64,000 nucleotides of DNA from Flavobacterium commune. GTDB taxonomy: Bacteria; Bacteroidota; Bacteroidia; Flavobacteriales; Flavobacteriaceae. Shown here piece after piece: positions 52,737 to 54,687 of this stretch; the stretch's first letter is position 1, and each line of letters opens with the position of its first letter. Location of the stretch: contig NZ_CP017774.1 of the NCBI RefSeq assembly GCF_001857965.1, positions 2,232,001 to 2,296,000 on the forward strand. The letters run 5' to 3'. The notes beneath the pieces are model-generated. The model saw only the letters and a list, made by a program, of their open reading frames with translations, ran no database searches and was not told where the DNA came from. The translations under genes were made by a program, and so were the position numbers.

Positions 52737-53186
52737 ATGAGTTTATCAGTAAAAATCATGGATGAGATGAAAACCGCCATGAAAGCTAAAGATACAGTAG
52801 CTTTAGAATCATTAAGAGCAATAAAATCAGAATTGCTTTTAGCTCAAACGGCTTCTGGTTCTAAAGAAGAAATTTCAGAAGAAGAAGAAATTAAATTATT
52901 GCAACGTTTGGTGAAAACCCGTAAAGAAAGCGCAAGAATTTTTACTGAACAAAATCGTGCTGATTTGGCTGAACCTGAATTAGCTCAGGTAGCTGTAATC
53001 GAAAAGTTTTTACCGGCTCAATTGAGTGAAGCTGAAATTGAGGCTGTAATTGCTAAAATTATTGCTGAAACTGGAGCATCTGGAATTGCATCTATGGGTA
53101 AAGTAATGGGATTAGCTTCTGCTCAATTAGGAGGGACTGCCGAAGGCAAAACGATTTCTACTATAGTAAAAAAATTATTAGTCTAA
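52737..53186 (+). CDS. GatB/YqeY domain protein
   Basis: A 149-residue protein consisting of the helical GatB/YqeY tail domain alone (MDEMKTAMKAKDTVALESLRAIKSELL, EFLPAQLSE-type segment FLPAQLSEAEIEAVI, GKVMGLASAQLGGTAEGKTIS). The domain resembles the tRNA-binding tail of the GatB amidotransferase subunit; the free-standing protein has no settled role. It lies between the dcw terminator and tRNA-Arg. Confidence 0.92.
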   Translation: MSLSVKIMDEMKTAMKAKDTVALESLRAIKSELLLAQTASGSKEEISEEEEIKLLQRLVKTRKESARIFTEQNRADLAEPELAQVAVIEKFLPAQLSEAEIEAVIAKIIAETGASGIASMGKVMGLASAQLGGTAEGKTISTIVKKLLV

Positions 53187-53209: not shown

Positions 53210-53283
53210 GGCTGCGTAGTTCAACTGGATAGAATATCAGATTTCGGCTCTGAGGGTTGCAGGTTCGAACCCTGCCGCGGTCA
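53210..53283 (+). tRNA. tRNA-Arg(TCG)
   Basis: A 74-base cloverleaf. Acceptor GGCTGCG/CGCGGTC has two G-U pairs and discriminator A. Anticodon stem TCAGA/TCTGA encloses TTTCGGC, with anticodon TCG at 53244-53246. T-arm GCAGG-TTCGAAC-CCTGC. CCA is not encoded. A damaged second copy follows 370 bases downstream. Confidence 0.95.
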
Positions 53284-53293
53284 CTTTTTTTGT

Positions 53294-53339
53294 AGCTTCA
53301 AAAATAATCAGGATAATTTGATTGTTTTTGAAGCTTTTT
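53294..53339 (+). terminator. Terminator of tRNA-Arg
   Basis: AGCTTCAAAAA (53294-53304) pairs with TTTTTGAAGCT (53325-53335), followed by T. Repeated at 53778-53823. Confidence 0.85.
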
Positions 53340-53391
53340 GTTTTAAAATAGAAAAAGTCAATCTATAGTAAAAATCAATTTTCAGTAAACT

Positions 53392-53640
53392 ATGAAATAT
53401 TATGTATATGTTTTGGAAAGTGAAATTCATGGGAGGTTATATAAAGGTCAGACATCTGATATTGATAAACGTATAAAAGAACATAATTTAGGAAAAACAA
53501 AATCTACAAAAGGATATAAACCTTGGAGATTAGTTTATTTTGAGGTTTATGAAACAAGAGAAGAAGTATTAGAGCGTGAAAAATATTTTAAGACAGGAAG
53601 TGGAAGGGCTTTTTTGAAAGAGAAATTACAAAAGAAATGA
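53392..53640 (+). CDS. Small GIY-YIG nuclease-domain protein
   Basis: An 82-residue protein that is just a GIY-YIG domain: YYVYVLES with Y6 at the GIY position, LYKG (Y17) at the YIG position, the catalytic arginine R27 in DIDKRIKEH, and a glutamate in LEREKYFK (E61 or E63). Related small proteins are widespread and some nick DNA. The gene lies alone between two copies of a tRNA-Arg region, so a role in moving or copying that segment is possible but unproven. Confidence 0.9.
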   Translation: MKYYVYVLESEIHGRLYKGQTSDIDKRIKEHNLGKTKSTKGYKPWRLVYFEVYETREEVLEREKYFKTGSGRAFLKEKLQKK

Positions 53641-53674
53641 CCAGTTGGATTTAGTTTTGTTAGTCAACTGAATA

Positions 53675-53694
53675 CCTGTCTGCCTATAGGCAGT
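53675..53694. repeat. Palindromic insertion in the D-loop
   Basis: Contains the perfect 14-bp palindrome CTGCCTATAGGCAG (53680-53693). Confidence 0.85.
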
Positions 53695-53729
53695 GAATAT
53701 CAGATTTCGGCTCTGAGGGTTGCAGGTTC

Positions 53730-53750
53730 CCCGCCTGCCGGTCGGGCAGG
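53730..53750. repeat. Palindromic insertion in the T-loop
   Basis: CCTGCC and GGCAGG arms around GGTCG. The insertion splits TTC|GAAC without loss of bases. Confidence 0.85.
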
Positions 53751-53777
53751 GAACCCTGCCGCGGTCACTTTTTTTAT

Positions 53778-53823
53778 AGCTTCAAAAATAATCAGGATAA
53801 TTTGATTGTTTTTGAAGCTTTTT
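53778..53823 (+). terminator. Duplicated tRNA-Arg terminator
   Basis: Same AGCTTCAAAAA/TTTTTGAAGCT hairpin as at 53294-53339. Confidence 0.75.
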
Positions 53824-53856
53824 ATTTTAAATTGTATTGAATTTAAAATCTTTTTG

Positions 53857-54687
53857 ATGGAGCTAACTATGGTATTTCAATTTTTTATCATTCTTGTTTT
53901 TGGGATATTAGCTCTTCTCTTGATCGTGTTTCGAATTATTGAACCTATTTATGTTTTCTTCTTTAAGAAACCTTTGTTTTTACATATTTACCCTTTTTCT
54001 AAAAAGCTGAATAATGAGCAAAAAGAAATTTTAAAAACGAATTTCCTTTTTTATAATCGGCTTACTCCAAAAAAAAAGCGCTATTTTGAGCATCGTGTTA
54101 AAGAGTTTGTGCGTAAATATGAGTTTATAGGTAAGGATATAGTGATTACCGAAACGATGCAAATACTCATAGCGGGAACTTATGTGATGCTGACTTTTGG
54201 TCTGCGGAAATACCTAATTACTTTATTTACGAGAATTATTATTTATCCGTCAAGTTATTATTCGTCTTCAAACGATGCTTACCATAAAGGCGAGTTCAAT
54301 CCCAGAATGAAGTCGATTGTTTTTTCCTGGGAAGATTATATTTTAGGTCATCAGACTACCAATGATAATATTAATTTAGGTCTTCATGAATTTGCTCATG
54401 CCTTGCATTTTCATTGTATGAAAAGTAATGATTCCAGCGCAGCCGTTTTTTTTGATGAATTTAATAAAGTGACAAGGTATTACACTGATGCGGAATTAAA
54501 TGCCGAATTGCGTTCTAAAGGCTATTTCAGATTGTATGCTTATCAAAATCAATTCGAATTTCTAGCAGTAATTTTGGAGCATTTTTTTGAAACTCCGAAG
54601 CAATTTAGAAAGGAACATCCGGAGTTGTTTGTCATTGTTAACAATATGCTTAATTTTAAAGAGTATTTAGTTGAAGATTCTTTTTAG
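53857..54687 (+). CDS. MtfA-like zinc-dependent peptidase (M90)
   Basis: About 276 residues from ATG 53857; the open frame extends back into the tRNA terminator repeat and is not likely used. An N-terminal membrane helix (VFQFFIILVFGILALLLIVF) precedes the peptidase domain. The zinc motif is H177-E-F-A-H181 in NLGLHEFAHALHF, with a further acid in FEFLAVILEHFFETP. MtfA in E. coli is a cytosolic peptidase binding the Mlc repressor; the membrane-anchored flavobacterial form has no known target. Confidence 0.85.
   Translation: MELTMVFQFFIILVFGILALLLIVFRIIEPIYVFFFKKPLFLHIYPFSKKLNNEQKEILKTNFLFYNRLTPKKKRYFEHRVKEFVRKYEFIGKDIVITETMQILIAGTYVMLTFGLRKYLITLFTRIIIYPSSYYSSSNDAYHKGEFNPRMKSIVFSWEDYILGHQTTNDNINLGLHEFAHALHFHCMKSNDSSAAVFFDEFNKVTRYYTDAELNAELRSKGYFRLYAYQNQFEFLAVILEHFFETPKQFRKEHPELFVIVNNMLNFKEYLVEDSF

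Follow-up and report, generated by a model that had tools for sequence, protein, structure and literature searches.

Islands carried by tyrosine recombinases insert at a tRNA gene, keep this tRNA complete and leave a partial copy of it at the other side. Mobile group I introns in tRNA genes can carry homing genes of the GIY-YIG type, and the Ssn proteins of Neisseria, single-strand GIY-YIG nucleases with site specificity, are associated with repeats. Palindromes are also found inside genes, as in the case of the Rickettsia palindromic elements, which are about 100-150 nt long and lie in the coding frames of protein genes. For the single-domain GIY-YIG proteins of the UPF0213 type, we know of no linkage to tRNA. 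SegB, a free-standing GIY-YIG homing endonuclease of T-even phages, is reported to cut inside tRNA genes and to be enriched beside them, where it produces tandem tRNA-segB arrays, with no preference for a tRNA isotype (PMC13096335).

In this study, we have analysed a 64-kb window (the whole stretch of DNA considered here, G000:C1:2232001-2296000) of a 3.85-Mb single-contig genome, in which a gene for a small GIY-YIG nuclease lies between an intact tRNA-Arg(TCG) and a second, interrupted copy of it. The locus is probably a minimal homing-like element, that is, a single-domain GIY-YIG gene settled at tRNA-Arg(TCG) and tied to this one tRNA gene. As in free-standing homing endonucleases, the nuclease is found outside any intron or intein, with a complete tRNA beside the gene, in the 10 loci inspected in this respect.

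The tRNA-Arg(TCG) locus and its nuclease

All the parts of the locus lie on the forward strand. The only intact tRNA-Arg(TCG) called by both ARAGORN and Rfam (53210..53284) follows a gene that we take to be of the yqeY type (52737..53186) and precedes a terminator (53285..53347, with its hairpin at 53294-53335), whose homologue in F. sufflavum stands between the tRNA and the GIY-YIG ORF. The ORF itself, of 82 aa (53392..53640), is followed by a tRNA-Arg remnant (tRNA', 53653..53768), a second copy of the terminator (53769..53831) and an ORF presumably coding for an MtfA-like peptidase (53806..54687), the true start of which is probably further in. Both flanking genes, taken from the ORF list, are syntenic with those of four empty sites, as genomes lacking the element show the same order of yqeY, tRNA-Arg, terminator and mtfA-like gene. 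The element measures about 484 bp, and the GIY-YIG gene is the sole ORF of at least 60 aa between the copies. Besides the tRNA, the terminator is duplicated too: a direct repeat of 81 nt with 98% identity (53267-53347 and 53751-53831) runs from the T-arm through the terminator. Neither the ORF nor this second terminator figured in a preliminary description of the locus, which was concerned with the tRNA copy.

Alignment of tRNA' to the intact tRNA shows exactly two insertions, of 20 nt (CCTGTCTGCCTATAGGCAGT, 53675..53694) at the border between D-loop and D-stem, after tRNA nt 22, and of 21 nt (CCCGCCTGCCGGTCGGGCAGG, 53730..53750) at the centre of the T-loop (GGTTC^GAACC), without loss of tRNA bases at either site. 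The second copy, its two inserts and their places had thus been correctly described, the boundaries given before (53655..53767) requiring a small correction, since the copy spans 53653-53768 and its 3' end lies one base further. The anticodon arm and the 3' half were said to be kept, and tRNA nt 23-57 and 58-75 are indeed identical to the intact gene, so that the whole of nt 23-75 is unchanged apart from the T-loop insert; nt 1-22, at about 53653-53674, are degenerate. Each insert contains a CTGCC-N-GGCAG palindrome, in agreement with the palindromic character attributed to both. Taken singly, the inserts exceed shuffled sequences only modestly, their palindromicity being equalled by 374 and 1144 of 20000 shuffles, and the case for them therefore rests on recurrence, which is the stronger evidence. 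Within the 64-kb window, CTGCC-N2-8-GGCAG has two matches, both in tRNA', with 0.05 expected. Folding of the RNA, to which the preliminary description had also pointed, gives no excess of stability for tRNA' over its shuffles (z -0.96).

The protein encoded between the two copies matches PF01541 with 63.5 bits (gathering cut-off 22.6; E 2.3e-17). Six residues, Y6, Y17, G19, R27, H31 and E63, are invariant among 20 aligned relatives, and all of them except G19 presumably correspond to the catalytic Tyr, Tyr, Arg, His/Tyr and Glu of GIY-YIG enzymes. As the catalytic residues are invariant and dN/dS amounts to 0.16-0.33 in 15 pairs of the Arg clade, the protein is, by these sequence measures, maintained by selection, though some copies are broken: the nuclease of F. 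sufflavum is frameshifted and that of genome G141 seems broken. No DNA-binding domain for a specific site is visible in the 82 residues. Among proteins of solved structure, those of UPF0213 (1zg2, 1ywl) come closest to it in sequence, followed by SLX1 and I-TevI; a naming attempt with NCBIfam on three proteins returned one match only, below the cut-off, for one of them.

Recurrence, split tRNA copies and occupied sites

A protein search of 121 genomes of the genus found relatives at E <= 1e-10 in 50 of them. The genome studied here carries, besides the copy in the window, two nuclease genes at tRNA-Met and one at tRNA-Ala, while three of its seven relatives are without tRNA linkage. Named genomes were scanned with an alignment of five Arg-type proteins, the alignment of 20 sequences being too diverse for scanning, and yielded 73 loci in several phyla; host labels may err in this set, because many of the genomes are metagenome-assembled. 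Loci at tRNA-Arg occur in many Flavobacteriia (Flavobacterium ranwuense, F. soyangense, F. sufflavum, Algibacter, Joostella, Paucihalobacter, Mesohalobacter and Dokdonia, for example) and in Pedobacter, Terrimonas and Marinifilum. Patescibacteria carry elements at tRNA-Cys, and Ser, Gln, Gly, Asp, Asn, Lys and other tRNAs are each used in a few cases in other groups. Phages were considered as the source of the element and rejected, as only 7 of 50,697 phage records matched the window protein, all of them weakly (below 60% identity).

Two layouts are found. In the first, seen with Met, Ala, Val, Pro and Leu, the ORF often starts some 44-70 nt past the tRNA and has a second, partial copy of this tRNA behind it; in the second, seen with Arg and some Pro, the partial copy precedes the ORF and the tRNA comes after it. 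Nuclease, partial tRNA and terminator may be repeated in tandem arrays of up to five units (genome G007). After collapsing rows with identical coding cores, which reduced the genus set from 112 to 80, there were 148 distinct ORFs including the named set, of which 96 have a tRNA on the same strand within 320 nt and none has one on the opposite strand. Linkage amounts to 47/76 in the genus, 46/49 among the closer named relatives (L160-L208) and 3/23 among the weaker named ones (L209-L232); the 52 ORFs unlinked at this distance comprise later array units, genes at contig ends and also truly unlinked genes.

The nuclease type goes with the tRNA. On a tree of 79 genus proteins (82 columns, built by a quick method, with 38 of 75 inner branches left open and one too-short row dropped), seven tRNA labels on 57 rows require six changes, the minimum possible, against a mean of 32.6 for shuffled labels, with none of 200 shuffles as low. 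Support for single tRNA groups ranges from 64 (Arg) to 100 (Leu), and the Pro clade contains both layouts, with the tRNA upstream and downstream. Within the genus, each nuclease clade is tied to its own tRNA.

Beside the linked ORFs, the spare tRNA copy is usually split, and the place of the split is typical of the tRNA. For each linked ORF, about 220 nt of adjoining sequence were searched by split alignment, with two mononucleotide shuffles per locus as controls. A tRNA copy divided by an insert was found in 78 of 96 loci; 16 had none and in two the flank was too short. All 78 splits scored above their own shuffles, none of which reached 15, with scores of at least 20 in 64 and below 20 in 14. 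For tRNA-Arg lying downstream, the insert stands exactly after nt 22, without loss, in 17 of the 23 other loci, and the same site is used with the tRNA upstream, as in the window and F. sufflavum. The inserts of these 17 loci are 16 to 41 nt long and differ in sequence; they start with CCTG or CCG, end with CAGG and are palindromic to a varying degree. Copies of tRNA-Cys are split after nt 33-34, again without loss, in 4/7 loci, and those of tRNA-Met after nt 37, with 7 nt replaced, in 11/14. The anticodon arm is replaced in Pro copies with the tRNA upstream (split after nt 28, 6/7), in Val (after nt 28, 4/4) and in Ala (after nt 27, 4/8). The automatic procedure misplaced the split at nt 6 in three Pro loci with the tRNA downstream (L089, L112, L118), where replacement of the anticodon arm is plain by eye, and the split of at least one Ala locus (L117) is a weak misplacement. 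Spare copies are often decayed, or lost, in their half next to the nuclease gene, with nearly whole copies in L165 and L178. A match in genome G114 to the gap pattern of the D-loop was dropped, its insert not being palindromic; the window's own copy does not fit that exact pattern.

These results do not support the picture of a free-roaming palindromic unit that mainly chooses RNA loops, as drawn in the preliminary description. Interrupted copies mostly adjoin a GIY-YIG gene at a tRNA, the site of the split goes with the tRNA and the nuclease type, and Ala, Val and Pro copies, together with single Gly, Gln and Lys loci, have the anticodon arm replaced instead of a loop entered. F. sufflavum (L177) shares with the window the order tRNA, terminator, GIY-YIG ORF and tRNA', similarity falling at the 3' end of tRNA', and it carries inserts at both sites, the one in the T-loop being identical; the two inserts are therefore not two recent local events.

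Three further observations concern the surroundings of such loci. In three Patescibacteria (L179, L190, L194), a double palindrome of about 30 nt occupies the anticodon loop of tRNA-Cys copies, and others like it appear again in the surrounding few hundred bases that were read. At tRNA-Arg in three other members of the genus (L053 in G080, L055 in G090, L054 in G110), a second copy of the tRNA, partial or whole, lies 0.7-2.5 kb downstream with no GIY-YIG match between; insertions of other kinds may thus also occur at the tRNA-Arg(TCG) locus. Two matches to Flavo-1 RNA (RF01705; L095, 776-920 on the reverse and 2691-2770 on the forward strand) flank the element of genome G145.

For both Arg, with its four empty sites, and Ala, the same site is known in an occupied and in an empty state. 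One downstream-flank search of orthologous tRNA-Ala(GGC) sites, all in one group of related species, gave 8 occupied and 13 empty sites; five of the places (L116, L242, L243, L250, L256) are the same as genus loci read elsewhere in the analysis, and four stretches containing no tRNA-Ala (L245, L249, L252, L255, of which L249 holds a GIY-YIG ORF) were left out of the terminator count. A TACCC(A/G)A(A/G)CA hairpin follows the intact tRNA-Ala in 8/8 sites with the ORF and in 0/13 sites without it. The empty sites have terminators of the CTTGTAAA type (nine), the ACCGTAT type (three) and one other, so that 12 of 13 belong to the TTGTAAA or ACCGTAT type. One or other of these two empty-site types is found after tRNA' in five of the eight occupied sites (a TTGTAAA type in L116, L234 and L243; ACCGTAT in L242 and L250). 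In two more, L256 and the array L251, tRNA' too has the occupied type behind it, and in L257 no tRNA' can be recognised. The simplest reading of these sequences is that the element would have brought its own terminator to tRNA-Ala, leaving the native one behind the spare copy. Four further occupied tRNA-Ala sites (L019, L109, L120, L123) have no TACCC hairpin after the intact tRNA, with a ACCCAAAC hairpin after tRNA' in L120 and L123; they fit less well and count against a terminator swap as a general rule. In genome G078, the intact tRNA and tRNA' differ in their T-stem allele. The crossover could lie anywhere in the 3' half of the tRNA, and the element may therefore also have inserted just behind the tRNA.

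Proposed homing-like transfer and alternative readings

The arrangement suggests how such an element could spread. In a chromosome still free of the element, the nuclease would cut the uninterrupted tRNA gene where the spare copy is split or close to this position, between nt 22 and 23 in the case of tRNA-Arg, and the break would be repaired from a chromosome bearing the element, with the two tRNA copies serving as homology arms; the element would thereby be copied in and a working tRNA left. A palindrome from one of the dispersed families of the genome would abolish the cut site of the spare copy and, together with the decay of the half facing the nuclease, would make it harder for the tRNA copies to recombine and so remove the element. 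We infer that the palindrome of the spare copy marks the cut site. The supposed target is interrupted in this copy and retained in the intact tRNA beside the nuclease. The T-loop palindrome of the window and F. sufflavum is not accounted for by a single cut site.

The palindromes themselves are widespread. In the genome studied here, CTGCC-N2-6-GGCAG occurs 48 times (against 3 for the backward control), TCCGCC-N0-4-GGCGGA 22 times (against 0) and TCCCGA-N2-8-TCGGGA 69 times (against 2). At least one match is present in 118/121 genus genomes for TCCCGA, in 107/121 for CTGCC and in 62/121 for TCCGCC; TCCCGA counts are mostly far over the backward control, and for CTGCC many genomes have no more matches than chance would give and some have high numbers. 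The expectation that the palindromes occur elsewhere in the genome and in its relatives is thus borne out by dispersed families and by relatives with palindromes at the same place of the tRNA. Of the 27 dispersed loci read in this genome, one contains tRNA genes. Three of these 27 lie at the starts of 16S genes: TCCGCC and TCCCGA palindromes stand just ahead of what we take to be the 16S rRNA start at three near-identical places (L137, L139, L140). Six others (L138, L143, L145, L146, L148, L149) are copies of a longer repeat with TCCGCCGCGGCGGA at the tip of a long imperfect hairpin. The tRNA locus (L144, G000:C1:1475355-1476622) is a cluster of two tRNA-Asn genes and three T-arm fragments in which the T-loop holds TCCGCC-N2-GGCGGA.

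In one alternative, which we consider unlikely, palindromic units would spread by their own means and gather in any spare tRNA copy because it is free of selection, the nuclease being a bystander. This reading can draw on the palindromes lying far beyond tRNA copies, on CTGCC-rich genomes without a nuclease match at E <= 1e-10 (79 copies in G086, 65 in G117) and, as a point in favour of the roaming unit proposed earlier, on the tRNA-Asn cluster, where no nuclease gene is detectable, so that split tRNA copies can exist without one. Random neutral insertion, however, would not be expected to produce the base-exact, tRNA-typical position seen across genera at nt 22 of tRNA-Arg, or the replacement of the anticodon arm in several tRNAs. 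As palindrome-rich genomes without a nuclease match exist, we treat the palindromes as a partly independent pool filling the split tRNA copies.

The GIY-YIG protein might instead mobilise the palindromes, as RAYT proteins do with REPs, the tRNA copies being one landing place among others. The 18 genomes with a tRNA-Met type nuclease, picked by us from the genus loci read, are richer in TCCGCC copies than the 103 others (median 4.5 versus 0, p 1e-9, and p 0.003 after subtracting three copies per genome), figures that ignore kinship. A RAYT as the mobiliser finds no support, since none of five palindrome patterns occurs within about 1.5 kb of the three Y1_Tnp genes of this genome, and this leaves room for the GIY-YIG protein in such a role. 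But TCCCGA palindromes are present in 118 genomes against 50 with a nuclease match, and several palindrome-rich genomes are without such a match; mobilisation by the nuclease is thus very unlikely. A Y1_Tnp (RAYT-like) gene near G000:C1 3794615 (L157) lies close to palindromes of a different kind (CTCTGCAC..GTGCAGAG and GAGGGACT..AGTCCCTC), which may form a REP-like system of their own.

We give equally little credence to a system acting on RNA, in which the tRNA would be the substrate of the nuclease and the spare copy, with a stable hairpin in place of the cleavage arm, would serve as decoy or antidote RNA. Clades specific for one tRNA and an altered position typical of it fit an RNA target equally well, and one Pro copy (L088) still scores as a tRNA in Rfam, with 37.8 bits. 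Yet many spare copies lack the tRNA half facing the nuclease, DNA insertion fits them better than a folded decoy, and the copy in the window folds no better than its shuffles. Plain tandem duplication of the tRNA with pseudogene decay, or an assembly artefact, as the 81-nt repeat might suggest, can be dismissed as scarcely credible, being contradicted by the recurrence of the same anatomy in dozens of separate assemblies from several phyla, by the unlike terminators behind the two copies in related species and by a conserved ORF under purifying selection.

The homing-like element is the reading that we retain. Counted against it are the tRNA-Asn palindromes without a detectable nuclease, the 52 of 148 unlinked ORFs, the 16 linked loci with no split copy, the low-scoring and misplaced splits, the deviating tRNA-Ala sites, the target left in the intact tRNA, the T-loop palindrome, the broken nucleases and a protein of 82 aa with no visible DNA-binding domain. 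If it is true, small GIY-YIG genes beside bacterial tRNA genes would be selfish elements, each living off one essential tRNA, and the position of the palindrome would predict, to the base, where each nuclease lineage cuts. The dispersed palindromes may, in turn, be tied to breaks in structured genes. The puzzle posed by such an element is how a bare catalytic domain of 82 aa tells tRNA genes apart and how the intact tRNA escapes cutting. More tentatively, and with slightly less conviction than doubt, we propose a class extending across phyla, with one GIY-YIG protein of 80-odd residues per element, in which each lineage would use one tRNA gene, rebuild a working tRNA with its own terminator and leave behind a remnant immunised by a palindrome in the cut site. 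The bare catalytic domain would then read a tRNA-shaped substrate, either a folded single strand or tRNA-like DNA.

Comparison with described systems

Several known systems resemble the element in part. The Rickettsia palindromic elements, invoked earlier as a parallel, share with it the presence of palindromes inside genes, and the parallel is weak, as they are larger and lie inside protein genes. Ssn also combines a small GIY-YIG protein with a repeat-associated target. Mobile group I introns have in common a tRNA target and a homing gene, but here no group I or II family was found in 10 loci (Rfam, E up to 0.01) and the tRNA is complete beside the gene instead of being split around it; the intron reading was rejected on these grounds. 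The REP/RAYT system likewise involves short dispersed palindromes, with the difference that no Y1 transposase lies beside these families in the genome studied and that the palindromes occupy typical tRNA positions.

A complete tRNA and a partial copy flank the element as they flank tyrosine-recombinase islands. Unlike those integrative elements that target tRNA genes, however, it is only some 484 bp long and has no integrase, the nuclease being its only ORF of at least 60 aa. The single-domain GIY-YIG proteins of the UPF0213 type are the best solved relatives by sequence and of similar length; in contrast to the nucleases described here, the weaker relatives found in our searches are seldom linked to a tRNA.

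The open-licence literature, to which our search was confined, contained nothing on GIY-YIG elements that are linked to a tRNA and accompanied by a tRNA copy split by a palindrome. We regard the element as a variant of free-standing homing endonucleases, with a fair chance of forming a class of its own. SegB resembles it in being a GIY-YIG nuclease that adjoins tRNA genes and forms tandem tRNA-nuclease arrays, and differs in being a phage gene without isotype preference (PMC13096335). The element of the window type, in contrast, is found in bacterial chromosomes, encodes a protein of 82 aa, falls, within the genus, into clades each with one tRNA and is accompanied by a spare tRNA copy split by a palindrome.
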